This document shows, piece after piece, positions 4,272-59,852 of a stretch of DNA of 64,000 bases. Positions within the stretch are counted from its first letter, which is position 1. Each line of letters starts with the position of its first letter. Below the pieces are notes generated by a model that saw nothing but the letters and a program-made list of their open reading frames with translations, was not told where the DNA came from and did no database searches. Origin of the DNA: Piscicola geometra (lineage: Eukaryota > Annelida > Clitellata > Hirudinida > Piscicolidae); contig OX030968.1 in assembly GCA_943735955.1 (NCBI GenBank), forward strand, positions 6,960,662 through 7,024,661. The letters run 5' to 3'. The translations under genes were made by a program, and so were the position numbers.

Positions 4272-4699
4272 GGAATAAAGTGTAAAAGTGCTGAAAAAAC
4301 AAATTATAAATGTATTATATCAAACAAATGATTATACTGTATTATATTATTCAATTACTATTTTTGAATTGTATTAAAAATATTAAAGTCATCAATTAAA
4401 ATTACAGCTGTGCTTTAATCTACTTTAAATTTCTAAAAACGCGTTAACCAATTAACGATCTTAAAATTTTTAACGCCGTTAAATATTTCACGCATTTTAA
4501 AAAAAATTAACGAGATTAACATTTGTAATGCTTTTAAACTTATCCAAATTAAACTCTTGTTTGCTGTTTTGGTTACATTGTCAGCAAGTGAACACAAACA
4601 CTACTAATTCACAGTCAACAAACGAATGGGAAAAAAAAAATTTCATAAAATTTTTTTTTTTTTTTGAAGACTTGCCACAAAACTTCTAAAGGGTGAAAA

Positions 4700-5292
4700 A
4701 TTCTTGCAAATTTCAATAGTGTTACTTGCTTATGTCATTCGTTTTAAACACAACATTTTTTCCAAATTAGAGCAGAGAATGAATAATCAGAATATCCAAT
4801 GGTCAACAATTGCCACATCATTAGACTCCCGATTCAACTTTTTTTTTACATTTCAAAAAATAAAAGAGTTAAAAGAGAAAAAGAAATCTCAAAAACTATA
4901 CGTTCTTCACCAAAAAAAGACTACGAAAATATGTAACTTCAGATTCTGAAGATGAAAATACTTCAATGATAATTAAGTCAATCATTAAACGGTATAGGAA
5001 AGTATCTGAAGTAGGCTTTGAGAGTTATCCTCTTGTTTGGTGGCAACAACATGAAGGGATATATCCGACTCTTGCAAAACTGGCAAGAAAGTACTTGTCA
5101 TCTCCTGCAAGTACAATTTCATGTGAACGTATATTCAATTTGTCAGGACACATAGTTAGCAAGAAAAGAATCTCTTTAGATCCAACTAATGTTGAGAAAC
5201 TTGTTTTTTCTAGTAACTGGCTCAAAAGGATGTGTGACAAATGCATTTTTATCCTTTGTTTTTATTCTTTCATATGTGGATTACTTTTTTGA
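4700..5292 (+). pseudogene. hAT-F transposase fragment with hAT dimerisation domain
   Basis: Two frames carry the relic. The first (4704-4949) has the SLDSRF motif, equivalent to LDPRFK upstream of the dimerisation domain in ZBED4/Ac-type transposases. The second (4966-5292) reads YPLVWWQQHEGIYPTLAKLA, then SSPASTISCERIFNLSG, then KKRISLDPTNVEKL, which is the classical hAT C-terminal dimerisation domain. A stop and frame change separate them. The N-terminal BED finger and most of the catalytic domain are missing, so the product cannot act alone. Similar fragments recur at 26800-27130 and 43880-44100. Confidence 0.85.
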
Positions 5293-5675
5293 TTGAGTAA
5301 CTGGCTTTAAAATGATATATGAAAATTTCATTTTTCATCATTTATGGAATTTTTTCTTCTACGAAATATAGATCACTATTTTTAAAAATTTCAGATAAAA
5401 TTGTTATTACACTTGTATGAATACAATTTTCAATACAATTTTATACTAATGTCAAAAAATCTAAAAACATTGCGTTAAAATACGATTAGCGCAGGAATAA
5501 ATTTTTTAATGGAACAGTTCTAATTAAAAAATATCTGACTTTTTTTATGTCAATATATTTCCAAACAGTATTTTGACTTTGGGCGTGTAGTTTTTTAATA
5601 AAATCTTAAATGACGATTTGTTCTAGTTTTTTACATTTATTTGTTATTATTATTAAATTGACAATAACCGAATGG

Positions 5676-25042: not shown

Positions 25043-26047
25043 AATTCATGTATTTATTCATTCATGAATTTATTCATTCATGAATTTATTCATTCATGAA
25101 TTTATTCATTCATGAATTTATTCATTCATGAATTTATTCATTCATGAATTTATTCATTCATGAATTTATTCATTCATGAATTTATTCATTCATGAATTTA
25201 TTCATTCATGAATTTATTCATTCATGAATTTATTCATTCATGAATTTATTCATTCATGAATTTATTCATTCATGAATTTATTCATTCATGAATTTATTCA
25301 TTCATGAATTTATTCATTCATGAATTTATTCATTCATGAATTTATTCATTCATGAATTTATTCATTCATGAATTTATTCATTCATGAATTTATTAATTCA
25401 TGAATTTATTCATTCATGAATTTATTCATTCATGAATTTATTCATTCATGAATTTATTCATTCATGAATTTATTCATTTATGAATTTATTCATTCATGAA
25501 TTTATTCATTCATGAATTTATTCATTCATGAATTTATTCATTCATGAATTTATTCATTCATGAATTTATTCATTCATGAATTTATTCATTCATGAATTTA
25601 TTCATTCATGAATTTATTCATTCATGAATTTATTCATTCATGAATTTATTCATTCATGAATTTATTCATTCATGAATTTATTCATTCATGAATTTATTCA
25701 TTCATGAATTTATTCATTCATGAATTTATTCATTCATGAATTTATTCATTCATGAATTTATTCATTCATGAATTTATTCATTCATGAATTTATTCATTCA
25801 TGAATTTATTCATTCATGAATTTATTCATTCATGAATTTATTCATTCATGAATTTATTCATTCATGAATTTATTCATTCATGAATTTATTCATTCATGAA
25901 TTTATTCATTCATGAATTTATTCATTCATGAATTTATTCATTCATGAATTTATTCATTCATGAATTTATTCATTCATGAATTTATTCATTCATGAATTTA
26001 TTCATTCATGAATTTATTCATTCATGAATTTATTCATTCATGAATTT
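25043..26047. repeat. 16-bp satellite (ATTCATTCATGAATTT)n, highly homogeneous
   Basis: About 63 tandem copies of a 16-bp unit. Reading through I find only two variant units after the first: AATTC for CATTC near 25394, and TTTATG for TTCATG near 25468. The unit contains the palindrome ATTCATGAAT, so either strand could form periodic hairpins. The array ends exactly at the SINE-1 insertion. Confidence 0.97.
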
Positions 26048-26205
26048 AGGAACGGTTAGCTGAGTCGGCAATGTAAGGTCCTAGGTTCAAGGGCAACCAA
26101 TGCCCTAGTTACCCATAGGCACAAATGAAAATATGCAACCTAAGTGCCTGGAAGCCCGTTCGGGTTATACGCCACTATAATAAAGTTCGTCATTATTATT
26201 ATTAT
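26048..26205 (+). mobile_element. SINE-1 copy in the satellite
   Basis: A tRNA-derived head with perfect A box TAGCTGAGTCGG and B box GGTTCAAGGGC, only about 16 nt apart. The other copy has about 38 nt, so part of the tRNA-like region is deleted. A body with ATGCCCTAGTTACCCATAGG follows. The 3' end GGAAGCCCGTTCGGGTTATA, then CGCCACTATAATAA and (ATT)n, resembles the LINE-C 3' end. It sits between two blocks of 16-bp satellite. Confidence 0.85.
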
Positions 26206-27274: not shown

Positions 27275-27408
27275 ATCAAGTAGAAAGAAATCATTATAAA
27301 ATTTAATTTATTCAAATTTTACGATAATAAGATTATTTAATATAATACGTAACATAATATAATATTATAAATATTTCTAAAAAATTATTTGTGACACCCA
27401 CACTACAC
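27275..27408 (+). repeat. R-A copy 2, left part
   Basis: AAGAAATCATTA, ACGATAATAA and ATTATTTGTGACACCCACAC match R-A copy 3 at 47280-47375. The repeat is broken by FB1 and resumes at 33370. Confidence 0.8.
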
Positions 27409-27620
27409 GGGATGCAGTCGATTCACCCCATAACCGATTCACCCCATAACCGATTCACCCCATAACCGATTCACCCCATAACCGATTCACCCCATAACCG
27501 ATTCACTCCATAACCGATTCACCCCATAACCGATTCACCCCTTAACCGATTCACCCCATAACCGATTCACCCCTCAACCGATTCACTCCTTAAAATAATT
27601 AAAAACGGACTTTATTTTTT
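27409..27620 (+). repeat. FB1 left inverted repeat (16-bp iterons)
   Basis: About 11 units of GATTCACCCCATAACC with sporadic variants (CACTCC, CCCCTT, CCCCTC), followed by the AAAAACGGACTTTATTTTTT module. Confidence 0.95.
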
Positions 27621-27889
27621 ATAGGTATTTTGTTAAAATAAAATAATACATTATTATTTTTTAAATAATAAAAATAAAAAACTATAATTTGTTCGAATAA
27701 ATAAAAAACTATGAAAAAATTATAAAACGAATAAATACATTTATTTAAAAAGATAAAATAAATGGCAAATTATTTTTTAAAATTATAAAATACATCTAAA
27801 AAATATATATAAAAACTATAAGAAAGTAACAAAATTATGAAATATTAAAAAGTTATAAAATATTAAAAATTATAAATATTAAAAATTAT

Positions 27890-29835
27890 AAAATATTTTT
27901 AAAATGATAAAATATTTTAAAAATTATAAAATAAATAGATAATTATAAAATAAATAGATAATTATAAAAATAAATAGATAATCATAAAATAAATAGATAA
28001 GTTAAAAAAGATAATTATAAAAATAAATAGATAATTATAAAATAAATAGATAAATTAAAATAAATAATTATAAAAATAAATAGATAATTATAAAATAAAT
28101 AGATAAGTTAAAAAAGATAATTATAAAAATAAATAGATAATTATAAAATAAATAGATAAATTAAAATAGATAATTATAAAAATAAATAGATAATTATAAA
28201 ACAAATAGATAATTATAAAATAAATAGATAATTATAAAAATAAATAGATAATTATAAAATAAATAGATAAATTAAAATAGATAATTATAAAAATAAATAG
28301 ATAATTATAAAATACATAGATAAATTAAAATAGATAATTATAAAAATAAATAGATAATTATAAAATAAATAGATAATTATAAAATAAATAGATAATTATA
28401 AAATAAATAGATAATTATAAAATAAATAGATAATTATAAAATAAATAGATAATTATAAAATAAATAGATCATTATAAAATAAATAGATAATTATAAAATA
28501 AATAGATCATTATAAAATAAATAGATAATTATAAAATAAATAGATAAATATAAAATAAATAGATAAATATAAAATAAATAGATAATTATAAAATAAATAG
28601 ATAATTATAAAATAAATACATAATTATAAAATAAATAGATAATTATAAAATAAATAGATAATTATAAAATAAATAGATAAATATAAAATAAATAGATTAT
28701 TCTGAAAGAAATAGATAATTATAAAATAAATAGATAATTATAAAATAAATAGATAATTATAAAATAAATAGATAATTATAAAATAAATAGATAATTATAA
28801 AATAAATAGATAAATATAAAATAAATAGATAATTATAAAATAAATAGATAATTATAAAATAAATAGATAATTATAAAATAAATAGATAATTATAAAATAA
28901 ATAGATAATTATAAAATAAATAGATATTGATAAAATAAATAGATAATGATAAAATAAATAGATAATTATAAAATAAATAAATAATTATAAAATAAATAGA
29001 TAATTATAAAATAAATAGATAGTTATAAAATAAATAGATAATTATGAAATAAATGTATAATTTCAAAATAAATAGATAATTATAAAAGAAATAGATAATT
29101 ATAAAATAAATAGATAAATATAAAATAAATAGATAATTATAAAATAAAGAGATAATTATAGAATAAACAGATAATGATAAAATAAATAGATAATTATAAA
29201 ATAAATAGATAATTATAAAATAAATAGATAATTATAAAATAAATAGATAATTATAAAATAAATAGATATTGATAAAATAAATAGATAATGATAAAATAAA
29301 TAAATAATTATAAAATAAATAGATAATTATAAAATAAATAGATAATTATAAAATAAATAGATAGTTATAAAATAAATAGATAATTATGAAATAAATGGAT
29401 AATTTAAAAATGAATAGATAATTATAAAAGAAATAGATAATTATAAAATAAATAGATAATCATAAAATAAATAGATAATTATAAAATAAATAGATAATTA
29501 TAGAATAAACAGATAATTATAAAATAAATAGATAATTATAAAAGAAATAGATATTTATGAAATAAATAGATAATTATAAAATAAATAGATTATTATAAAA
29601 AAAATAGATAATTATAAAATAAATAGATAATTATAAAATAAATAGATTATTATAAAAAAAATAGATAATTATAAAATAAATAGATAATTTTAAAATAAAT
29701 AGATAATTTTAAAATAAATAGAAAATTATAAAATAAATAGAGAATTATAAAAGAAATAGAGAATTATAAAATAAATAGAGAATTATAAAATAAATATGGA
29801 ATTATAAAATAAATAGATAATTATAAAATAAATAG
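27890..29835. repeat. 19-bp satellite (ATAGATAATTATAAAATAA)n
   Basis: About 100 copies of a 19-bp unit with moderate divergence and some duplicated multi-unit blocks (for example the ATTGATAAAATAAATAGA-containing block near 28925 recurs near 29270). It lies entirely within FB1. Confidence 0.95.
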
Positions 29836-29985
29836 CTTTGATTGGCCATCACGGAAATCAACGGTTTGTTTGTACTCGCATTGTAAAAAGATCCAAAACT
29901 TGTTATTTCTGAAAAAGTGCAGTTATAATTATGGAGTTGCAGTCGATTCATCCCTTGACCGATCCACCCCTCAATAGTATATTTT
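29836..29985 (+). repeat. Unique segment with an orphan FB1-type end
   Basis: About 100 bp of non-repetitive DNA (TTTGATTGGCCATCACGG...) is followed at 29938 by TTGCAGTCGATTCATCCC, then GACCGATCCACCCCTC, a decayed FB1 terminus in the left-end orientation. Confidence 0.7.
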
Positions 29986-30074
29986 TAATAATTCTAGTAA
30001 TAGTATATTTTATTTTATATAAAATATATATATTATTAATAGTATATTTATTTTTTATATAGCATATTTATATT

Positions 30075-30355
30075 TTTTATAGTATGTTTATATTTATACC
30101 AGTATATTTATATTTATACCAGTATATTTATATTTCTACCAGTATATTTATATTTATACCAGTATATTTATATTTATACCTGTATATTTATATTTATACC
30201 AGTATATTTATATTTATACATGTATATTTATATTTATACCAGTATATTTATATTTATACCAGTATATTTATATTTATACCAGTATATTTATATTTATACC
30301 AGTATATTTATATTTATACCAGTATATTTATATTCATACCAGTATATTTATATTT
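30075..30355. repeat. 20-bp tandem repeat (ATTTATACCAGTATATTTAT)n
   Basis: About 13 units. The 92-codon Tyr/Ile-rich frame across it is a translation of the repeat, not a gene. Confidence 0.93.
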
Positions 30356-30544
30356 TATATAGTATATTTTATATTGAATAACTGGTTATTGAATAATGAC
30401 AATTTAGTATCATTAATTGGTTTTTAAGAGAAAAAATGTTTGTGTGTTTTTTGTCAATAAAATCATTATTTTGGAGTTATTTTCAATTTATGCTTCAGGG
30501 TAAGAATAGAAGCCAGGTTAACCTATTAACGAAATCTCCATTAA

Positions 30545-32104
30545 GAATGTAGGATAAAAAGCCTCTCGGAGAAAAAGCCTTCGGATAAAATACCTTCTAC
30601 AAAAAGCCTCCCGGAAAAAAAACCTCTTGGAGAAAAAGACTCTCAGAGAAAATGTCTCCTTGTTAATATTTTAGTATAAATAAAACGGACTTTTTATATA
30701 AAAAACGGATTTTTTTATAAATTCGTGTCACAATTTTAAATAAATAAAGCAAACTATATTTTTTTAAAATTACATAATTAAAACGAACTATAATTATAAC
30801 TATAACGGACTTTATTTTTTTAATAGATTCGTTTCACAATTTTAAATAAATAAAACACTATATTTTTTTAAAATACATAATTAAAACGAACTTTAATTTA
30901 TCAAATACAATAAAAATCATTGGTAAACGGATAAAAAGTCTTTAGAATAAAAATTCTTCAGGATAAAAAGTCTTCAAAAGAAAAAGTCTTCAGGATAAAA
31001 AGTCTTCATGATAAAAAGTCTTCAAGATAAAAATTCTTCAATTATAAAGTCTTCAAGATTAAAAGTCTTTGGGATAAAAAGTCTTTAGAATAAAAAGTCT
31101 TCAGGATAAAAAGTCTTTAGGATAAAAAGTTTTCAGAAAAAAAAATTTCAAAAAATTAAATTTTAAAGAAAAATACGTGATTAATTCGTGGTCCTTAAAA
31201 CATAAAGAATAAAATGTGATACTTTTATCTAATTTTTGCTATATTTTTTTCGTTCAATCTCGAAATAGCATTTGAATAAATTTGACTTGGTTGTTGTTGT
31301 TTCGTCACTTTAACCATAAGCAAATAATGTTTAAGGAAGAATACGTGATCCTAAAAACTAAAAGATTGAAATTTCATACTTTTATCTGATGTTTGCTCAA
31401 TTTTTTTTAAAATCTGGAAATAGCTTTCGAATAAATTTTACTTGGTTGTTGTTGATTCCTCACTTTACTCATTAGGTTTTTTGCTGGTTTTCGATCGTGA
31501 TTATTTTTTCTCAAAAATTAATTTTTGAAGATTTTTTTTGAAGATTTTTCATCCTGAAGACTTTTTGTTTTGAATACTTTTTGTCCTGAAGACTTTTTAT
31601 CCTGAAGACATTTTATTCTGAAGGCTTTTTATCCTGAAGACTTTTTATCCTGAAGACTTTTTATCTTGAAGACTTTTTATCCTGAAGACTTTTTATCCTG
31701 AAGACTTTTCATCCTGAAGACTTTTTATCCGTTTACCAATAATTTGTATTGTATTTGATAAATCGTTTTAGTTTTTTTTATATAAATATAGTCCGTTTTA
31801 TTTATTTAAAATTGTAAAACGAATCTATAAAAAAATAAAGGCCGTTATAATTATAATTATAGTTTGTTTTAATTATGTAACTTTTTTAAAATTAGTCCGT
31901 TTTATTTATTTACAAATTGTGAAACGAATCTATAAAAAATCCGTTTTTTATATAAAAAGTCCGTTTTATTTATACTAAAATATTAACAAAGAGACATTTT
32001 CTCCGAGAGGCTTTTTCTCCAAGAGGTTTTTTTTCCGGGAGGCTTTTTGTAGAAGGTATTTTATCCGAAGGCTTTTTCTCCGAGAGGCTTTTTGTCCGTT
32101 CCCC
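30545..32104. mobile_element. FB2: nested fold-back element with 9-bp TSD
   Basis: Long inverted arms (30545-31150 and 31500-32104) surround a spacer of about 350 bp. Outer ends share AAAAAGCCTCTCGGAGAAAA, then TTCGGATAAAATACCTTCTA. Inner parts of both arms hold ACGGACTTTTTATATAAAA and arrays of the 16-bp motif GTCTTCAGGATAAAAA. The target duplication CTCCATTAA (9 bp) is at 30536-30544 and 32105-32113. No coding sequence. A 9-bp duplication is characteristic of MULE and classical fold-back elements. Confidence 0.9.
31150..31495 (+). repeat. FB2 central direct duplication
   Basis: Two diverged copies of about 165 bp (about 31165-31320 and 31340-31490) share ACTTTTATCT, GAAATAGC, TTTGAATAAATTT-like and ACTTGGTTGTTGTTG blocks. 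Confidence 0.75.
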
Positions 32105-32689
32105 CTCCATTAATGGCAGATGTATATATTCGTTGTTTACTTTCAGTATGCTAGTGTACTTTTAACCGAAATTTTATTTTTTCGACAAAATAAACAAGGT
32201 TTTCGACAAGGTTGGAACCAAACTAATACATAGTTCTTTCACAATTATCATGAGATGTGAGATACGGGTAAGAATTGCCTAAAAACTGGGAAATGTGCAA
32301 AAATGTATAAATTCAGTAGAAGGGAGATATGTGCAGGATGGACGATTCAAGTCAACTAATTGCAAAGAAAATAGATAGGAAAGAGAAAAAAGCACCGTTT
32401 TTATATGTCCTTTAAAAATTGTATGTTTTTTCCTCACTTCCTAATCAATTCCTAATCAACTGCATGATCGGCCCCATGTTAAAAATTACCAATGTATGCG
32501 TCGCTTTTACTTACTGAAAAAGTTCAATTAACTCTAAAAAGAATCATTCCTTAAGGTTCATTTTGTCCAAAGGCTGTCATAAAATACAACACTAAAATGA
32601 CTTGGTTGAAAAAAGTGCCTTGTATTTAGTAATTTATTTTGTCTTGAATAATTTATTTTTTATTCAATATTTTGTTTTGATAAAGTATT

Positions 32690-33220
32690 TTGAATTTTAT
32701 AAATTATTTTATATTTAAAATTTTATTTTATATTTGCAATTTTATTTTATATTTAAAATTTTATTTTATATTTAAAATTTTATTTTATATTTAAAATTTT
32801 ATTTTATATTTAAAATTTTATTTTATATTTAAAATTTTATTTTATATTTAAAATTTTATTTTATATTTGAAATTTTATTTTATATTTACAATTTTATTTT
32901 ATATTAAAATTTTATTTTATATTAAAATTTTATTTTATATTAAAATTTTATTTTATATTAAAATTTTATTTTATATTAAAATTTTATTTTATATTAAAAT
33001 TTTATTTTATTTTAAAATTTTATTTTATATTAAAATTTTATTTTATATTAAAATTTTATTTTATATTAAAATTTTATTTTATATTAAAATTTTATTTTAT
33101 ATTAAAATTTTATTTTATATTAAAATTTTATTTTATATTAAAATTTTATTTTATATTAAAATTTTATTTTATATTAAAATTTTATTTTATATTAAAATTT
33201 TATTTTATCTTAAAATTTTT
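32690..33220. repeat. 18-19 bp tandem repeat (TTTTATATTAAAATTTTA)n
   Basis: The first units are 19 bp (with ATTTAAAA), the later ones 18 bp and almost identical. Because 18 is divisible by three, the later block is open in one frame (FYIKIL repeats); this is not a gene. Confidence 0.93.
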
Positions 33221-33224
33221 ATTT

Positions 33225-33369
33225 TAAAAAAGTCCGTTTTTAACTATTTTAAGGGGTGAATCGGTTGAGGGGTGAATCGGTTATGGGGTGAATCGGTTAT
33301 GGAGTGAATCGGTTAAAGGGTGAATCGGTTATGGGGTGAATCGGTTATGGGGTGAATCGACTGCAATTC
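33225..33369 (-). repeat. FB1 right inverted repeat
   Basis: The reverse complement of the left repeat: AAAGTCCGTTTTTAACTA, then about seven GGTGAATCGGTTATGG units, ending CGACTGCAATTC. Confidence 0.95.
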
Positions 33370-33740
33370 CACTACACTGGGCTTCAGCAGTAGCATGAAT
33401 AAAGTTCTGCAATTGGTTGAAACGGATATGAAAAATATATCAGGTTTTTAAAAGTTTTATGGTAGAAATAAACGTTTATTTAAAAAAAATCTAGTGTAGC
33501 TGGACATACAAAGACAAGTTCGAGGTTCCCAATCAGTGAACAGGTTTTTGAGATCGAATGCACTCTTGTTCACAAGCTTGGAACAGTTTGGTAAAGAAAG
33601 CCATAAACTGAATTGATTGCAGATAAAAGAGTCAGCAGCCTAGAGACGGACAGATCTCGTCTTTTGGAGGTTTTGGAACTCACATCTTTAATTTCTAATC
33701 GTGGAACAGCTCTAGTTTTTAAAATATGTCATTGTGTGTT
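33370..33740 (+). repeat. R-A copy 2, right part
   Basis: Begins CACTACACTGGGCTTCAGCA and continues GGCATGAATAAAG-like, AACGGATATG, TTCCCAATCAGTGAACAGG and AGCAGCCTAGAGACGGACAG, matching R-A copy 3 at 47390-47990. It has an internal deletion after about 33505. Confidence 0.8.
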
Positions 33741-35416: not shown

Positions 35417-36856
35417 TAGAGATCGGACCGGGTACCCGCGGGTAGCTGCGGGACTCCCGCGGGAACGGGAATGAAAATTAATTTCGGGACGAGAAAAGTC
35501 TGGAACCGGGAATAGGTTTTCGGGACAGGAACGGGAACGGGAATCAACATTCAAATCGGAAACGGGAATCGACTTTTAAATCGGAACGGGAAAAACGGGA
35601 ATACAAATTATTGGGAGTGGATTTTTTAACAATTATACAAGTATGGGAATCTCTATTTCATCGAGACTCCGTATTTCAAATAAGTATTAAATGCAATGGA
35701 AATGTATAACGAAGCCACCATTGTGTTGTCAAAATCTCCAACACTACATTTGAAGTTGTTATGGCAAGTCCAAACATTAGGGAGATTAGAACAAATGGGT
35801 GATGATGAAAACTTGTCAAACTGGTCAGTTATATTATTTTTATTTTATAAATTCATACTTTGAATTTGAATTATTAATTTCCATTTTAATGCTCAGTTGA
35901 TGATTTTGACAAAAAAAGATGCCCCAGTATAAAAAAATAATATTTGAAAAGTTTTGGATAGAAAAAAAATAAATACAAATACTTTCATTAGAGAAAATTT
36001 AATTCCATTTTGTACAGCCAGACCAAGCCCCAGTGACGTTGAGGAAATGATTGTTATTTAGACCCTATATGTTAGTTTTTATAACGTAAAAATGATAATA
36101 AAATTTTTTTACTATCAAATTATACGAATGATTTTATTTAGGCAGTTGTGGAGAATAAGAATGTTGTCAAAAAACATATTTATAACATTATTGAGGAAGT
36201 AATAATAATGAACGAGAAAAAAAATTCAGAAGAGGATGAATTGTACAAATATTCACAATTACGTCTCGCCAAAATCGAAGATTATAAAGATGTTAAATCT
36301 ATTGCAGTAAAAAAATTCCAATACTACAAGAAGTAGCCAAAATTTTGTTTAGTACACCTGCAAGTTCAATTCCCTGTGAACGGACTTTGTCAACATGTGG
36401 TCGTTCAACTTCAAACCCAAGATCAACTAATTTGAAAGCTAAAACTTTTGACGGTTTAACCCGTGTTAAAAGCAATAAAGACTTTATTGAATTACTCAAA
36501 AACAATGACTAACTTCAATACTTTCATTTCAATAAATATTTTAAATTTAAATCGTGTTTTTTTATTTTGTTGAAAGAAATATTTTCTGATTTTCAAATAA
36601 TGAATTCTAATTGTTAGGACTAGCAAGTTTGGGACCGGTGAAAACAGCAGCAAAAATAAATAAATAAACAAAATTTTTGTTGTCGAAATGGGTCGAGACC
36701 GGGTCAAAAAGTTTCGGGAACGGGTCGGGACCGGGAATCGAGTTGCGGGAACAGGACGGGACGGAAATCAAAATTCTGATAGCCCATCGGGAACAAGACG
36801 GCCTGGGAAAACAAAATTCGGGAACGGGACGAGACAGGGAATGAAAAATCGTCCAT
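35417..36856 (+). mobile_element. hAT-D2 element, right terminus deleted
   Basis: The left end TAGAGATCGGACCGGG is intact. The 8-mer GTCGCAAC occurs at 35409-35416 and 36857-36864. The right end stops at ...CGTCCAT without the expected GTCCGACCTCTA. Deletion between two GTC triplets would remove exactly these 12 bp. Subterminal CGGGAACGGGA iterons are present on both sides. Confidence 0.9.
36148..36512 (+). pseudogene. hAT-D2 transposase C-terminal relic
   Basis: A first frame reads VVKKHIYNIIEEVI and SEEDELYKYSQLRLAKIEDY. A one-frame change then leads to VAKILFSTPASSIPCERTL, STCGRSTSNPRSTNLKAKT and LTRVKSNKDFIELLKNND before the stop. PASSIPCERTLSTCGR is the conserved start of the hAT dimerisation domain. 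The N-terminal two thirds are missing. This copy is better preserved than the hAT-D1 relic. Confidence 0.85.
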
Positions 36857-47269: not shown

Positions 47270-47995
47270 GCGTTTTCAAGTAAAAGAAATCATTAGATAG
47301 CTTAATTTACTTATATTTTACGATAATAATATAATATTATAAATATAATAAAAATATTATTTGTGCCACCCACAAAACCCTGGGCTGGAGCAGTGGCATG
47401 AATAAAGTTCTGCAATTGGTTGAAACGGATATAAGGATATATCAGGTTTTACAAAGTTTTATGGTGGAAAGAAACTTTTATAGAAAATATAAAAGTGTAG
47501 TTGGACATGCACTCGACATGTGTCTTCAGCTGGTGGCTTCTGAGCTCAGCCATACTCTTAAACCGATTCAATGAGTCTTTTCAATGAGTAAACAAAAACA
47601 ACAAATTCGGGTTTTTCCGAAGCAACAACAAATCTTATTCACCTATAATGATCTCACTGAGTTCTCAAGCCAGTACCCACAGATTAACCTGTCTAGTCAG
47701 AGATGCTGTGAAACCTCAAGTTGTTCTGGTGGTGTTTTTCGGCTTGGATGTGTAGTAAAGTTAAGTTAATTTTCATCTCTTCTCAAGACGGTTTAGATAG
47801 GCAAAAGAGAAACTAGGACATTTATATAGAAGCCTTACCTATGAAGTACCCAATCAGTGAGCAGGCTTCTGAAATCGATAATGTTCTTGTTCACAACTTA
47901 AGAAACTTGAATGCAGTCAGTAGATTTATCATCCTATAAAAGATCCAGCAGCCTAGAGATGGACAGATCCCGTCTTTTGAAGGCTTCAAAGCAAC
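47270..47995 (+). repeat. Dispersed repeat R-A, copy 3 (uninterrupted)
   Basis: The longest copy. AAGAAATCATTAGATAG, ATTATTTGTGCCACCCACA, CCCTGGGCTGGAGCAGTGG, CATGAATAAAGTTCTGCAAT, GCTGGTGGCTTCTGAGCTC, CTGTCTAGTCAGAGATG, CAATCAGTGAGCAGGCTTC and AGCCTAGAGATGGACAGATC occur in order. It provides the empty site for FB1. Frames differ from copy 1, so there is no sign of a conserved protein. Confidence 0.8.
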
Positions 47996-49924: not shown

Positions 49925-52475
49925 GAATGGATGGATGTATGGATAAAAATTGAATGGATAGATGGGTGAATGAATGGGTGGATGAATGGATGGATGAATT
50001 AATGAATGGTGAATGGATGGATGAATGGATGGATGAATTAATGAATGGATGAATGGATGAATGAATGGATGGATGAATGAATATATGAATGGATATAAAA
50101 TTGAATGGATGGATGGGTGGATAAATGGATGAATGAATGGATGAATTGATGGATGGATAAATGGATGGATGAATGGATGGATGAATGAATGGATGAATGG
50201 ATGGATGAATGGATGGATGAATGGATGGATGAATGGATGGATGAATGGATGGATGAATGGATGGATGGATGAATGGATGGATGAATGGATGGATGAATGG
50301 ATGGATGAATGGATGGATGAATGGATGGATGAATGAATGGATGAATGGATGGATGAATGGATGGATGAATGGATGGATGGATGAATGGATAGATGAATGG
50401 ATGGATGAATGAAAGAATGAATAAATGGATGAATGAATAAATGGGTGAATGAATGAAAAGAGGAAAAAATATATGAATGAAAAGATGGATGAATAGATGG
50501 ATGAATAGTTAATTAAATGAATGGATTAATGAATGACTGAATGAATGAATAACTGAATGAATGATTGAATCAATGACTGAATGAATGATTGAATGAATGA
50601 ATGGATGGATGAATGGATGGATGAATGGATGGATGAATAAATGGATGAATGGATGGATGAATGAATGGATGAATGGATGGATGAATGGATGGATGAATGG
50701 ATGGATGAATGGATGGATGAATGGATGGATGAATGGATGGATGAATGGATGGATGGATGAATGGATGGATGAAGGGATAAATTGATAATTATATGAATGG
50801 ATGAATAAATAAATGAATGAAAGAATGAATGGATGGTTGAATAGATGGATGAATAGATGGATGGATGAATGGATAATTTAGTGAATGGATGAATGAATGA
50901 ATGGATGAATGGATAATTAAATGAATGGATGAATGAATAAATGGATGAATGAATAAATGGATGAATGAATCAATGTAGAAATTTATGAATGGATAGATGA
51001 ATGGGTAGATGGATGAATTGATGGAGGAATGAATCAATGTAGAGATTTATGAATGGATAGATGAATGGATAGATGGATGAATTGATGGATGAATGGGTGG
51101 ACGAATAGATGGATGAATGGATGGATGAATGGATGGATGAATGGATGGATGAATGGATGGATGAATGGATGGATGAATGGATGGATGAATGGATGGATGA
51201 ATGGATGGATGAATGGATGGATGAATGGATGGATGAATGGATGGATGAATACATGGATGAATGGATGGATGAATGGATGGATGAATAGATGGATGAATGG
51301 ATGGATGAATGGATGGATGAATGGATGGATGGATGAATGGTTGGATGAATGGATGGATGAATGGATGGATGAATGGATAATTAAATGAATGGATGAATGA
51401 ATACATGGATGAATGAATGGATGAATGGATGGATAAATGGATGGATGAATGAATGGATGAATGGATGGATGAATGGATGGATGAATGGATGGATGAATGG
51501 ATGGATGAATGGATGGATGAATAGATGGATGAATGGATGGATGAATGGATGGATGAATGGATGGATGAATGGATGGATGAATACATGGATGAATGGATGG
51601 ATGAATGGATGAATGAATGGATGGATGAATGGATGGATGAATGGATGGATGAATGGATGGATGAATGGATGGATGAATGGATAGATGGATGAATGGTTAG
51701 ATGAATGGATGGATGAATGGATGGATGAATGGATGGATGAATGGATGGATGAATGGATGGATGAATGGATGGATGAATGGATGGATGAATGGATGGATGA
51801 ATGGATGGATGAATGAATGGATGAATGGATGGATGAATGGATGGATGAATGGATGGATGAATGGATGGATGAATGGATAATTAAATGAATGGATGAATGA
51901 ATACATGGATGAATGAATGGATGAATGGATGGATGAATGGATGGATGAATGGATGGATGAATGGATGGATGAATGGATGGATGAATGGATGGATGAATGG
52001 ATGGATGAATGGATGGATGAATGGATGGATGAATGGATGGATGAATGGATGGATGAATGGATGGATGAATGGATGGATGAATGAATGGATGAATGAATGG
52101 ATGAATGGATGGATGAATGGATGGATGAATGGATGGATGAATGGATGGATGAATGGATGGATGAATGGATGGATGAATGGATGGATGAATGGATGGATGA
52201 ATGGATGGATGAATGGATAATTAAATGAATGGATGAATGAATACATGGATGAATGGATGGATGAATGGATGGATAAATGGATGGATGAATAGATGGGTGA
52301 ATGGATGGATGGATGAATTGATGGATGAATGGATGGATGAATGGATGGATGAATTGATGGAAGAAAGGATGGATGAATAGATGGATGAATGGATGAATGA
52401 ATGGGTGAATGAATGAATGGATAGATGATTGGATGGATGAATGGATGGATAGATGATTGGATGGATGAAAGGATG
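49925..52475. repeat. 2.5-kb 12-bp satellite (GGATGGATGAAT)n with higher-order structure
   Basis: About 200 units of GGATGGATGAAT with GAATGAAT and GGATAATTAA variants. Neither strand contains stop codons in several frames for long stretches, producing MNGW-type and SIHP-type frames up to 266 codons. A diagnostic block with GGATAATTAAATGAATGGAT and GAATACATGGATGAATG recurs at about 51371, 51871 and 52212 (less exactly at about 50900), showing higher-order repeats of about 500 and 340 bp. Confidence 0.97.
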
Positions 52476-54684: not shown

Positions 54685-57600
54685 GATACAATACAATACA
54701 ATACAATGACGAGTATTATTAACGTGGCGTAAACCCGGACGGGCTTCGAGACCACTTGGTTATGGAAAATTTGATAATAATATTAATGATAGATGAATAA
54801 ATGGAAAGTATAGGAAAAGTAAGTTATTGAAATTTAACAATAAAATCATATATATATATATATACATACATATGCACATATATAAACACATATATATACA
54901 TATTTTTACTTTTTTTTTAAATAGACAAAATAATTTTTTTTTTTAAAGATTGAAAGTGAAATGATAACAATAAATTTAAGAAAATTTAAGAAAATATTTT
55001 ACAATTATTATTGACCATTAGTATAAATATAAAAAAGAATGAAATTAGGAAGCAAGAAATTGATTGATGAAAAATGAGCAGTAAATTTGTAAGTTATTGT
55101 TATCGGTCGAACAAGTACGTTTTCAGGGAACGGCTGAATGTCGCGGTCGAGCTCGGGGATTTGAGTCTATTGGGAAGACTATTCCAAAGAGTCGGCGCCA
55201 CAACAAAAAAGCGTCTTGCACCTGCATACTTGAGTTTGTAGCTCTGTGGAACTACATCTCTTGACCTAGCAGACCTGAGTCTTTCTCTCTGGGGAAGACT
55301 TGCTCTCATGACAATGCTACTCGACAAATAATCTGGGCACTCATTAGACAGACACTTGTGCATTAACAAGATGTTTTTGTACTCAATTCTATTTTCAACA
55401 CGAAGCCAGTGAAGCTCCTTGAGAACATATGTGATCATACTTTCTAGCACCTGTTATGAGCCTAGCTGTGGTGTTGATTCTAGACTGAATTTTCTGCAGC
55501 TGCGTCATTGGCAACCCAGTAAGAATGATATTGCCATAGTCAATTCGACAGAGAACCAAAGCAGAAGCCAATGTTCTCAGTAAGTCCTTGGTCAATAACT
55601 ATCTTATGGATCGTATTTGGCGTAAAGAAGCAAAGCAGATTTGAGTCATCTTGTTGATGTGTGTCGTCATGGTGAGGTCTTGGTCGAGATAAACTCCTAG
55701 GTTTCTGACACTTTCAGAAGGAATTATCTCGTTCTAACAAATGCGAACTGGATCTTTGGGAGTGTGAGTAGAGTTTCGACGGGATGAGAGCCAGATAACT
55801 TCAGTTTTGCTGGAGTTAAGTTTCAGTTGATTGGCACCCATCTAAGCAGCAATTTCATCAATGCATGATGACACCCTTTCTTGCAGGTCAACCTGATGAT
55901 TTTTAATGCAATGACCGTAAATCTGGGTGTCATCAGCGTACTGATGAAAAGCGAGCTCATGTCTAGCTGCTATTCTTTCCAAATCTCCAGTGTACAAAAA
56001 GAACAGTAAAGGACCAAGGACTGAACCTTGGGGGACTCCTACAGCGGAAACCGACATTGTCGATTTTGTCCCACTACAGCGGATGTCAAAACATCTGTCA
56101 TTTAAGTAGTCCCTAAACCATTCTAACGCAGAGTCAGAGAAACCATAGGAGATGTGCAGTCTTCGGAGCAGTGTAGCATGATCTACCAGATCGAAAGCTG
56201 CTGATAGATCTAGCAACACTAACAATGTAAGCTTACCGTCATCTGCTGCCCTAACGATGTCTGAAAAGACTTTGGTTATGGCAGTTTCTGTCGAATGATG
56301 ACGACGGTAGGCTGACTGCAAGGGAGGCAAAAGATAAAATTCTGCGAGGTAGTTGACTACTCTGTGGAGAACTAATCTTTCCATGAGTTTGGACAACACC
56401 CTCAAGTTTGAAATAGGCCTGTACGACGAAGTTTCAGTGAGTTTAAGACTTGGCTTCTTGAGCAGTGGCGTGATGTAGGCCGACTTGAAGGACTTCGGAA
56501 CCCTGCCTGCCGAAAAAAACCTGTTGAATAAGCTCACTAAAAAAGGAGCAATTATTCCAGATATCTCCTTCAACAGCCATGTAGGAACCGGGTCATTCGA
56601 GCACTGCTTATTCGGAAGCCCTTGAATAGCCCTAACTACTTCTTCTTCGTCGACTATGCTGAACCTATTCAAACTGAGCCCGTGCTCGCAGAATGAAAAT
56701 GTTGGGTCATCTTGGGCATTGATTGACCTTCTCGCCGACGCAACTTTCTCTGTGAGGTGTGCGTGATAGTCATCAGCACTGATGCCTGAGACTGACGACG
56801 TCTTACTTCTGCCCGCGATGCTATTGATGAGTTTCCAGGTGTCAGCTGGCTTCCCTTTGGACTGAGATAGCTTCAAGTTCCAGAACTGCTCTCGCTTGCG
56901 TCTGCACAGACTCTTGTAAACTTTCAACTGCTTGACCCAGGCAGTACGTGCTTGCTCATTTTTTGACTTACTGTAGCTTCTCTCGAGACTTCTCTTAAGG
57001 CGTTTAGAGGCACGACACTCATGGTCAAACCAAGGGTCCGAAGGCCTCTGGTGCATTCTAACAGTATTAAGAGGAATCAACTTATCGAGAATGCTAGTCA
57101 AAGTGGAGCTGTAGAGGTCAGCAGCTGAATCTACATCAAGGTCAGTGCTAGACGAGAGTGGAGACAGTCGAACCTGTTGAGCAAACTCTGTTCTATCCAA
57201 GAGTTTCCAGCGTCTACTAGAATTTTTTTTGTACACAGAAGAAGGTTTGGCCAGTTGACACTTCCAGACCAACAGTTTGTGGTCAGAGAAGCCTACCTCA
57301 ATGCAGTCTACATCAAGACTCTTTCTCGAGGCAACAACATCAAGCCACCCTCCCTGACTATGGGTTGGTTGGTTGACTGATGACTGGAAACCATGAGAGC
57401 TCAGGATATTCTGAAACGTCTGAGTATCATTATCACTTGGATTTTCAAGGTGGAAGTTGAAATCTCCCAGGATTAATACTTCTTCACTGTATGTGGCCAA
57501 GGTGCTCATGATTTCATTGAAATCCTTGAAGAACACGCTAGAAGCATAACCTGTTCGATAAACAACCAAACCAATGACCGCCCTTGAACCAGAAGTGATT

Positions 57601-58110
57601 CTGACACAAAGATGCTCAAAAGTTGAGGACTGAACTTCTGTGTCCAATGGTGCAACCTGGAATCCAGAGTTAGCCACGACTGCAATTCCCCCGTGGTTTG
57701 TATGCAGCGTGTTTACTGTATTGGAGAGTCTAGGCCTTGATCTTTCGACCACTACCAAGCTCTCCTGCCGCAGTCGGCTGATACAGACTGACTCAGGATC
57801 ATGCCAAGTTTCAACCAGAAACAGTCCGTCTATCTTGTACTCTTTCATGGTCTCCAGAACGTCATCCACCTTATTGTGGAAAGACCAAGTGTTGAGTAGG
57901 CCCAGCACGACTGAAGGCCCACTCTTCTGAAATTTGTGCCGATCAACTTTCTCATGGACAACTGGCTCATGGCTTCTAAGAGCGTGCCGGCTTTGGCGTT
58001 CCTTTACAAGTTTTCCGCCTTGTCTGCCACGATAATGCCAATGCTGGCGGTGCCTTGCCAATCCTAGTCTGTTGATGGTCGCTCTAGCCTCTGCACTAAG
58101 CTCCCCATTA
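54685..58110 (-). mobile_element. LINE-C copy 2, nearly full-length CR1-like element
   Basis: The 3' end is at about 54685 with CAATACAATACAATACAATG, then the ACGTGGCGTAAACCCGGACG tail. A 3' UTR with TA-rich repeats runs to about 55095, and ORF2 runs from there to about 58110. The upstream boundary lies in (ATT)/(AAT)-rich DNA at 58105-58190. It is the reference for LINE-C in this window; copies 1 and 3 are shorter. Confidence 0.88.
55100..55841 (-). pseudogene. LINE-C ORF2 C-terminal part after the nonsense codon
   Basis: The frame continues after the stop as NQLKLNSSKTEVIWLSS and NLGVYLDQDLTM. It later reads ALVLCRIDYGNIILTGLPMT and RINTTARLITGARKYDHI, where a small net deletion shifts it. 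The final frame (55450-55100) reads KELHWLRVENRIEYKNIL, VVPQSYKLKYAGARRFFV, APTLWNSLPNRLKSP and RSLKTYLFDR, the normal end of the protein. At least two further stops are visible in the part between. With the nonsense codon this makes copy 2 inactive. Confidence 0.88.
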
Positions 58111-58169
58111 TTGTTATTATTAAATTGTAAAAAAAATTCTTTTAAATAAATTTGCATAGGATAGAACAA
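55842..58169 (-). pseudogene. LINE-C ORF2: EEP endonuclease and reverse transcriptase, 775-codon open frame
   Basis: One continuous frame. Element coding probably starts near GELSAEARATI, so the first about 20 residues (Asn run) are flank. The region after it, with HYRGRQGGKL, is typical for CR1-like ORF2. Endonuclease motifs: LLNTWSFHNK (about residue 90), LFLVETW (about 117), LILGDFNFHLE (about 232) and FSDHKLLVW (about 293). RT motifs: SNDPVPTWLLKE, SYRPISNLRVLSKLMERL, QSAYRRHHSTETAI, LLDLSAAFDLVDH (about 652), GVPQGSVLGPLLF (about 711) and YADDTQIY (about 744). All catalytic residues are present. The frame ends at CIDEIAA by a TGG-to-TAG change where copy 1 continues AAWMSANQLKLN. Acts in target-primed reverse transcription. 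Confidence 0.92.
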
Positions 58170-59852
58170 TAATAATAATAATAATAATATAGTTTAGAGA
58201 CTAAAAAGATCAGTGTTATGTTAGGACATTTGTTAGAAAAATTAATATAATGAGAAAAACCAAAAGTTATAATTAAATAGGTTTTAATCAACTCACCGGT
58301 CTTTGATTGACACAATATATGGTTAAATTTAATCAATTTAACTTACCGGCAGGTTGATAACAAACAACTATTTATATATGAAAACTCGTAAACACAAAAT
58401 TTACCTAAATATGAATAGAAATAATTAATCTAAACTAATTTAAATAAAATATTATCTTAAAAATATATTATTTACGAATAAAATGGTATAAAACTTGTCG
58501 AATTTAAAAGGCAGCCGTATTGGCGCCTAACTAAGTTGATAATGAGAGTGACGGGGTTGTCGGAATAGTAAGTAATAGACAGGCCTGTTTGAGTGGTTGT
58601 GAAAAAGTGAGTTTTTGTGTGAGTGGAAAAAGTTGAAAAGGTTTCCTAAAACATAAAAAATCATGAAAATTTTAAAGCAGAAGTTAAAGAATATGAAAGA
58701 CAAATAAAACCACAAGAGCAACAACAAAACCATCAAAAAACAAAAATTGTAAAAATAAAAACCGCAAAATCAGCGTTCATATCAACAACATCAACTTCAA
58801 AATCAACAATAAAAACATAAGCAGCAACATCGCAAAGAACAACATTGAAAACAAAAGCATTAACATCAACAACAAGATAAAAAACTAAAGCAGTGTATGG
58901 ACGATCTTGTCATGTTGAAACACGTCAAAAGAGATAAAAACATGATCTTTATTCTTGTGCTGCAAGGAGATTTTTCTTGTGTGTGTGTGCGTGTGTAAGT
59001 GTGTGTTTTAAACCTTAGAAAGTTTTCCAATAACTGAACAATTTTTATTGAATTGAGAAGTTCTTACTGTGGTAAGAAAGCTACACATAATTCAACACAT
59101 ACAGCTACACCTATAACTACACATACCACTAAACATACAACTAAACATACAACAACAAATACAATCACGAATACAAGGTTGGTTCAATTAACTGTAACTT
59201 TAACGGAAATTGGTCAAGTAACTGGAAAAACGATTTCAGTTAACTACTAACTGAAACTCTTACTGTGTTAGAGACTGACCAAAATTCAGTTCCATTTCAT
59301 CACTGAAATTTAAATTTGTTCTATTTTCACTAAGCAGTTTTTATTTTAATTGCAAATTACTTTTGATTCGAGTGTTTTTTATCGTTGAATGTATACGCAT
59401 TTCTTAGCTTTTTCATTTATAAATTAAAAATCACGCCAAAAGTTTTACAATTTGTTACAATCTCATTTAAAAAAACAAAACTTTTAATTCAAAGAATCAA
59501 CAATTATTTGGGCACAGATTACAACTTTTAAACAAATAAATTAATTTGTGTATTTTATTATAAAATTAAAAATACATTTTTAGAACTGAAATACACTACG
59601 CCAGAACGCAAAATAAAAGGGCATTCGGCGAAGAGTGTTTGATCTAAATAAAGAAGGTTTATTTCAAAAAGATTTATTAAAAATGTTAAAATTGCAAAGT
59701 ATACTGTAAATGCAATAAACATTGAAAATATATAGGGAAGAAGAAAAAATGAAGGAGACAACATTTGAGTGCTGAAATGTGAAGTCCAATTTCAACACAA
59801 GTTACTCGGCTGAAACTTTAAAGTTTTGTTTAAACCTGTCTATATGTACTTT
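58111..59852. other. Unassigned AT-rich DNA
   Basis: Short (AAT)n at 58167-58188, CAA/ATC-rich low complexity at 58740-58890, a GT-rich patch near 58980. At 59175-59260, TTAACTGTAACTTTAACGG and CAGTTAAC motifs resemble hAT-B subterminal repeats, perhaps a solo end. No gene is supported. Confidence 0.45.

Follow-up and report, generated by a model that had tools for sequence, protein, structure and literature searches.

The element FB1 in the genome of Piscicola geometra is, as judged from its own sequence and that of its relatives, a deleted member of a foldback family of the Mutator superfamily. The full reading, in which FB1 is a non-autonomous foldback DNA transposon of the Mutator superfamily, probably of Phantom type, that moves by the mechanism proposed below, has a probability of about 0.9. 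FB1 lies in a window of 64,000 nucleotides (the whole stretch of DNA analysed), where its ends and insertion site comprise the following features (strand given where one applies):

27401-27408: left copy of the target-site duplication CACTACAC, identical to 33370-33377
27409-33369: whole FB1 element, coordinates exact to the base
27409-27419, plus strand: left terminus, GGGA-type, GGGATGCAGTC; 142 genome matches to GGGATGCAGTCGATTCACCCC at no more than one mismatch
27420-27595, plus strand: left array of eleven 16-bp iterons, consensus GATTCACCCCATAACC
27605-27613, plus strand: ACGGACTTT module inward of the left array, at the same position in many copies
33229-33237, minus strand: ACGGACTTT module inward of the right array
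33247-33358, minus strand: right array of seven inverted iterons
33359-33369, minus strand: right terminus, GAAT-type, GAATTGCAGTC read inward; 114 genome matches to GAATTGCAGTCGATTCACCCC at no more than one mismatch
33370-33377: right copy of the target-site duplication CACTACAC, 8/8 match

The outermost bases of the two ends differ (GGGA on the left; GAAT, read inward, on the right), and both ends carry inverted short tandem repeats whose number varies by end and by copy, an architecture of the foldback type. In all, 562 iteron units were counted; over the initial 400 bases of the 46 copies, adjacent GATTCAC motifs form 197 pairs, of which 183 are spaced by 16. Left arrays have 1-14 iterons and right arrays 1-16, the two ends being equal at 4 of 46 loci. 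In the left array of FB1, as in most arrays, the two innermost iterons end in TCAACC and TTAAAA. The notion that left and right arrays are kept alike within one copy is unsupported (similarity 0.904 within copies, 0.906 between them). The ACGGACTTT module matches the window six times, where 0.40 matches are expected and none of 100 shuffles gave more than two; besides the two in FB1, three lie inside a nested element, FB2, and one at 36380, which was rejected as linked to FB1 and sits in unrelated sequence without iterons.

The sequence-only reading of this DNA had placed the FB1 boundaries exactly as found here and had described the inverted 16-bp arrays of about 11 and 7 units and the module shared by both ends; the repeated flanks that it described are the CACTACAC copies, alike at 8 of 8 positions. 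Its proposal that removing the element restores a host repeat is borne out. When the flanks are joined with a single CACTACAC, the alignment continues across the junction into the uninterrupted copy of the host repeat near 47326-47511, with 159/188 positions identical and two gaps, both away from the junction; the 8-bp target itself has diverged in that copy. On this comparison, the insertion of FB1 duplicated 8 bp of a dispersed host repeat.

Searching the 171-Mb genome with the 17-bp FB1 end gives 194 exact matches. At no more than one mismatch there are 142 GGGA-type and 114 GAAT-type ends genome-wide, against no matches to the reversed-pattern controls, so FB1 is not a chance arrangement; on these counts the family has over a hundred copies. 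It is conceivable that the arrays are ordinary satellites inverted by recombination, flanked by 8 bp that are alike by chance, as the arms are satellite-rich and array numbers vary. However, the two termini are distinct and fixed, 35 proper end pairs occur among 100 x 100 listed ends (100 of 131 and 100 of 105) where 0.15 would be expected by chance under even base use, and 30 of the 46 loci fetched are flanked by exact 8-bp duplications, as are 4 of 2070 controls with mispaired ends. The family copies and the mispaired controls refute the satellite reading, which retains a vanishingly small probability.

The 46 loci are the window and L013-L057, excluding L001-L008, which have single ends, and L060, which is half a copy. 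At loci with several ends, the count used whichever pair gave the best duplication, which biases it toward matches, and the set includes duplicates of single insertions (L027/L028, L031/L032 and L034/L035). The match is below 7/8 at 11 of 46 loci, among them L041, a 9-bp case, and L029, which matches once shifted by one. Duplications of 9 bp flank the C13 and C1:15994414 copies; 9 bp as the rule was rejected, the adjoining base being C in 4/30 on one side and G in 7/30 on the other. Three copies fetched in halves and counted separately (C2:10700874, C5 and C9) all have 8/8 duplications. Nine further long pairs, checked by short flanks, match at 8/8 in five cases, four of which are one duplicated C14 insertion; the remainder are C13 with 9 bp, two members of an exchanged C2 pair, and C2:9666014, without a match because another FB1 end adjoins its right end. 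The sequence-only reading had called for a genome search with the FB1 end and for a duplication length from aligned copies: the former finds the same pair of ends on many copies whose insertion sites are unrelated, and the latter gives 8 bp (30/46 loci), within the 8-11 bp range of MULEs.

The interior of the window copy contains the following:

27922-29835: 19-bp satellite AATTATAAAATAAATAGAT of the left arm, about 102 copies
29905-29977, plus strand: relic of about the last 73 bases of a transposase gene, to the stop codon, aligning to the gene end in L058
29938-29976, plus strand: terminus-like internal TGCAGTCG with two degenerate iterons
30041-30375, plus strand: 20-bp satellite AGTATATTTATATTTATACC of the shared interior, with repeated matches to the same stretch in other copies
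30536-30544: left copy of the FB2 9-bp duplication CTCCATTAA
30545-32104, plus strand: FB2, a nested foldback element of 1560 bp with ends GAATGTAGGATAAAAAGCC and (inward) GGGGAACGGACAAAAAGCC
32105-32113: right copy of the FB2 duplication CTCCATTAA
32704-33226: 18-bp satellite TTATTTTATATTAAAATT of the right arm

Other copies have A/T-rich arms similar to those of FB1. Two parts of the interior, 29836-30535 (some of it the 20-bp satellite) and 32114 to about 32700, together about 1.3 kb, consist of family DNA common to other copies and include the transposase gene end, contrary to the earlier description of only satellites and another element; in the C14 copy L061 the stretch matching 29938-29976 encodes the transposase C-terminus. 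Aligned with its relatives, the window copy has no transposase gene save its end and is interrupted by FB2, which 24 of 52 loci searched lack, running across the site. The FB2 arms are 86.8% complementary over 613 bp. No transposase was found for FB2: none of its listed end pairs, paired by eye, encloses a listed transposase match.

The longer transposase-bearing copy that the earlier reading sought is present in the same genome. Long copies of 10.8-14.3 kb on five contigs carry a predicted transposase gene with a MULE domain (PF10551, 1.2e-12, 48.6 bits against a cut-off of 27.6 in a Pfam scan), its splice sites picked by eye. Two long copies contain a block of N. The D-D-E residues D181, D248 and E366 are invariant in 12 aligned proteins, an alignment that took in 11 of 72 matches. 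A FLYWCH finger falls below threshold (22.4 bits against the Pfam cut-off of 23.6) and has Asp in place of its last His; at E<=0.1 the scan also gives a weak ZSWIM RNaseH-like match (0.067). One exon has 151 matching places at E<=1e-3, about 20 loci (counted from the list) being at least 85% identical, and identical exons occur on C2, C5 and C17 within copies that run from end to end and are flanked by 8/8 duplications. The C2:10700874 copy has inverted arms of 1295 bp that are 82.9% identical, long TIRs of a kind frequent, though not universal, in the Mutator superfamily.

Could FB1 be moved by a transposase of another class, such as the P-type of Galileo, with the MULE gene a mere passenger? 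Foldback ends have arisen in several superfamilies, according to the part of the Tm1 account that deals with them (PMC3169594). However, eight long copies (C2:10700874, C5, C9, C17 and four on C14) have the MULE exon pointing the same way at a distance of 2.2-2.5 kb from the GGGA end, and duplications of 8 to 9 bp suit MULEs, for which 8-11 bp is given (PMC6446971). The P-type was rejected, since the Pfam scan at E<=0.1 finds MULE and no THAP domain in the transposase, and the passenger reading as a whole is highly improbable.

Under the preferred Mutator-type reading, the transposase from the long copies would bind the 16-bp iterons, each end offering it several sites, would pair the ends and cut at GGGA and GAAT, and the cut ends would be joined across an 8-bp stagger. 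The iterons are candidate binding sites; the Galileo THAP domain, as discussed in PMC3688188, offers a precedent in which repeated units at an end provide more than one site. Array length varies between ends and copies while the outermost and two innermost units mostly keep their types, a pattern that would follow if middle iterons come and go through unequal exchange or slippage.

Alternatively, the family may be dead, with every remaining transposase inactive and the FB1 copies relics. Of four copies whose exon was read, three (C2, C5 and C9) have Asn in place of the first catalytic Asp, which C14 keeps; exon four of the C2 copy contains a stop, the first exon of the C5 copy is broken, and in the shared interior other copies differ from the window copy by about 2-16%. 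Against this, one C14 copy is open in all five exons with D-D-E over the fetched part (the start of the first exon lies beyond it), the long exon is free of stops in three of the C14 copies, of which there are four, and the closest copy is 98.3% identical to the window copy over 520 bases. The Asn for Asp, the stop and break, and the sub-threshold FLYWCH finger without its last His leave present-day activity uncertain, and extinction stands a little short of even odds.

New here are interiors in both orientations relative to the fixed GGGA and GAAT ends, exchanged duplications of two inverted FB1 copies (about 12 kb each) 38.7 kb apart on C2, and a 35-kb pair of FB1 copies on C4 that has a duplication TTACTTTC of its own and resembles a composite jump. 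Recombination of the long inverted arms is probable, both within a copy and from one copy to another. The C2 exchange either reflects an inversion made by the transposon, of which exchanged duplications are the known sign, or arose when the assembly flipped the segment. Segments between long inverted repeats are classically prone to being assembled backwards, and placement of the 38.7-kb segment in the wrong direction is nearly a toss-up. The same mark is genuine at the breakpoints of Drosophila Galileo inversions, as reported in PMC2775673; the present data offer no counter-evidence to an assembly error. That FB1 drives chromosome rearrangement is tentatively put forward, the odds being somewhat against it: its long iterated arms would lead it to recombine with inverted copies, as in the C2 inversion, ends from two adjacent copies could serve as a pair, as in the composite move of 35 kb on C4, and interiors would flip, both forms having transposed.

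No named family matching FB1 was found in the literature, mostly open-access, and the letters of the iteron gave two matches in papers, both irrelevant. Drosophila FB/NOF elements resemble FB1 in their foldback arms of short tandem repeats; they have a MULE-related NOF gene and are known for rearrangements. The nearest described match in plan is Tm1 of root-knot nematodes, a Mutator/Foldback element (Gross and Williamson, 2011; PMC3169594). In that description Tm1, like the FB1 family, has short unequal outermost motifs followed by a variable number of short tandem repeats, unequal between ends, mostly non-autonomous copies, and a MULE transposase, with duplications of 8-10 bp; its transposase has a FLYWCH finger that lacks the last His, as does the sub-threshold finger of the FB1 family. 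Its repeats are most often 14 bp, and the M. incognita consensus CGATTCAGTATCGC shares CGATTCA with FB1 CGATTCACCCCATAAC. FB1 differs in its units of 16 bp, in duplications that are usually 8 bp where those of Tm1 are usually 9 bp, in A/T satellite arms of kilobase length and in copies reaching 14 kb; by eye, its termini and unit length differ from the consensuses given there for the Tm1 end motifs (A1/A2, GGA and the 14-bp motif C). Nor is the transposase close to that of Tm1: a FLYWCH-MULE protein of Meloidogyne hapla shares just 25% identity with that of the FB1 family and, unlike it, retains the last His of the finger. The Phantom clade (group 20), as characterized in PMC6446971, shares with FB1 an animal host, a MULE domain and the duplication length (8-10 bp), with FLYWCH in some members; its TIRs are 18-613 bp or none, whereas FB1-family arms reach about 1.3 kb (82.9% identical). 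Galileo, a foldback-like element of the P superfamily in Drosophila, has similarly long, internally repeated ends but, by the accounts in PMC2775673 and PMC3688188, a P-type transposase with THAP and 7-bp duplications, where the FB1 family has MULE.

The earlier proposal of a fold-back-like, non-autonomous element moved in trans is therefore supported by the copies, the 8-bp duplications and the transposase-bearing long copies. Its remark that the end sequence was not recognisable from any named family needs qualifying: FB1 does differ from Tm1, but the transposase assigns it to Mutator and the architecture is Tm1-like. Set apart from Tm1 by the published consensuses, the FB1 family appears to be new within the known Mutator-type foldback elements. 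In the literature found, animal elements of Mutator type seldom combine a transposase with iterated ends of the foldback kind. With over 100 copies, transposase-bearing members and distinguishable ends, the family is suited to testing iterons as transposase-binding sites, and to the study of array growth, inversion frequency and the carriage of host DNA.

FB1 is a foldback DNA transposon, and the limits first proposed for it from sequence alone (27409 to 33369) match the window sequence exactly. The 16-bp repeat next to its ends, the iteron, is present in 11 units on the left and seven on the right, and a second foldback element, FB2, is nested inside.

From 27409: FB1 left end, GGGATGCAGTC
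27605 and 33229: ACGGACTTT module, inward of the FB1 arrays, then A/T satellites farther in
30545-32104: FB2, a 1560-bp foldback element whose 16-bp units differ in sequence from those of FB1
To 33369: FB1 right end, GAATTGCAGTC read inward

Both ends are directly flanked on the outside by CACTACAC. With FB1 removed, the joined flanks align across the junction with the host-repeat copy near 47.3 kb (159/188 identical). About 1.4 kb to the left lies a near-perfect 16-bp satellite (25044-26048; 62.8 copies, 99% matches), with the FB1 iteron period and a different unit.

The genome searched (171 Mb, 66 contigs, containing the window) holds 194 exact matches to the 17-bp FB1 end TGCAGTCGATTCACCCC; the reversed control gives 0. 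With the outermost four bases included and at most one mismatch, there are 142 GGGA-type (left) and 114 GAAT-type (right, read inward) ends. The 8-bp flanks are identical at 30 of the 46 loci having one end of each type (window counted) and agree at 7/8 positions in five more, against 4/2070 for mispaired flanks, four being the number of cross-pairs from two insertions duplicated with their surroundings. Three further copies, read in halves, all have an 8/8 duplication, as do five of nine more long pairs compared over short flanks, four of these being one duplicated insertion. Copy counts and matching duplications, set against the controls, therefore make the ends a true, polar pair. The sequence-only reading would have failed if the ends had no other copies or were separate satellites without target-site duplications; the genome instead holds many paired copies with duplications. 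These are mostly 8 bp long, and 9 bp in two copies (CCATACCAT on contig C13; GGATAAATC at C1:15994414). At about 4.3-5.3 Mb, C14 carries repeated segments, with four long FB1 copies sharing the duplication TTTGACAG and many sister MULE matches, and looks like a segmental duplication cluster.

Across 562 units, the iteron carries at least 1.75 bits at positions 1-10, 13 and 14 and is looser at 11, 12, 15 and 16; arrays range from 1 to 14 units at left ends and from 1 to 16 at right ends. Where an array has at least three units, tallied from the five commonest types listed per place, the outermost iteron is TTAACC in 55/80, the next-to-innermost TCAACC in 58/79 and the innermost TTAAAA in 64/76, while middle iterons are of mixed types; both outermost iterons of the window copy are ATAACC. 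From this pattern we infer that units are gained and lost inside arrays whose borders stay fixed. The THAP domain of Galileo, a foldback-like element of Drosophila, binds repeated sites within its long ends (excerpts of PMC3688188), an analogy that makes the iterons likely sites for the transposase.

Longer copies with a transposase, which the earlier reading advised looking for, do exist. Exons of a Mutator-superfamily (MULE) transposase lie within 10.8-14.3 kb copies on C2, C5, C9, C14 and C17; none of the listed genome matches of the transposase exon falls in the 13.2-kb C13 pair. One exon has 151 genome matches at E<=1e-3, with about 20 loci at least 85% identical (counted by hand from the list); many of the rest, at roughly 30-55% identity, represent sister families. 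For one C14 copy, joining five exons at GT-AG gives a single frame (boundaries by eye; first-exon start outside the piece fetched). The predicted protein matches PF10551 at 1.2e-12, with FLYWCH sub-threshold, and its D181, D248 and E366 are invariant in an alignment with 11 relatives (two bivalves, a shrimp, a coral, two nematodes and five others). Asn replaces D181 in the copies on C2, C5 and C9; in addition, exon four of the C2 copy holds a stop, and exon one is broken in the C5 copy. The part read of the C14 copy is free of all three defects. Its last codons extend across TGCAGTCG and two degenerate iterons, which makes part of an end-like sequence the transposase C-terminus; the frame ends 46 codons sooner in C2, C5 and C9 (196 vs 242). 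A reverse-transcriptase-like frame, recognised by eye, adjoins the transposase of the C2:10700874 copy (4293-5420 of the fetched piece, L058).

FB1 works in the manner of other foldback DNA transposons. Its domain and its duplications make it a member of the Mutator superfamily, with the long copies as its probable transposase source, which extends the original transposon claim. The domain order of the transposase fits the Phantom clade (PMC6446971, in part), where FB1 would be placed. In plan FB1 is close to Tm1, a Mutator/Foldback family of root-knot nematodes: in the excerpts of PMC3169594, Tm1 also has unequal end motifs, tandem units headed CGATTCA and a finger without the last His. By sequence FB1 is not Tm1. 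The common CGATTCA may be chance (odds of a few per cent, estimated by hand). The kind is already known; the literature searched did not turn up this family.

The window copy itself is a deleted relative. Its 29905-29977 is the final stretch of the transposase gene, and most of 29905-30544 and 32105-33226 matches what follows that gene, on its 3' side, in the C2 copy. FB2 is flanked by its own 9-bp duplication, CTCCATTAA, and its insertion site is uninterrupted at 24 of the 52 loci searched. Its ends have 196 and 188 genome matches at up to two mismatches (reversed controls, 2 and 0). FB2 may be a distant relative of FB1, because unequal termini and ACGGACTTT are common to both; no transposase partner was found among the FB2 end pairs and transposase matches listed. 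Elsewhere the window carries a 12-bp satellite (49925-52475, about 210 copies), a non-LTR retrotransposon frame with endonuclease and reverse transcriptase domains (55842-58193, minus strand; RVT_1 5.6e-25) and, at 36340-36440, a stretch resembling the C-terminal portion of hAT transposases.

How do these elements rearrange in orientation and REARRANGEMENT? With the GGGA and GAAT ends as reference, the shared interior lies one way at 28/46 loci and the reverse way at 3/46 (15 not scored). The C2:11839227 and C2:11890150 copies have the first orientation; the C2:10700874, C5 and C9 copies have the second, as do those on C14 and C17, from the transposase strand. Duplications of 8/8 occur at 19/28 and 3/3 loci, respectively, so both forms have transposed; the right-arm type differs between the groups, and one simple flip therefore cannot account for everything. 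Among 100 x 100 ends listed, flanks match in 35 proper pairs and 21 others (chance expectation 0.15, assuming even base use), 18 of the 21 coming from duplicated C10, C11 and C14 segments. Two of the remaining three belong to inverted copies 38.7 kb apart (C2:11839227-11851441 and C2:11890150-11902907), whose duplications are reciprocally swapped.

C2:11839227 and C2:11890150: exchanged duplications, GCCAGGGT/ACCCTGGC and TTCAAGAG/CTCTTGAA

A Galileo inversion was recognised by opposite orientation, exchanged duplications and chimeric copies, and the C2 pair has the first two of these three marks (PMC2775673, in part). The exchange would reflect an inversion or an assembly flip, either giving an identical picture. 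The last match joins a GAAT end (C4:9329104) and a GGGA end (C4:9364188), 35 kb apart and oriented as one element. They are the outer ends of a pair of like-oriented copies and are both flanked by TTACTTTC, with unrelated flanks at the inner ends. A composite jump via the outer ends of two neighbours would explain this candidate, a single case read at its ends only. It is these rearrangement signatures of FB1 that are worth following.
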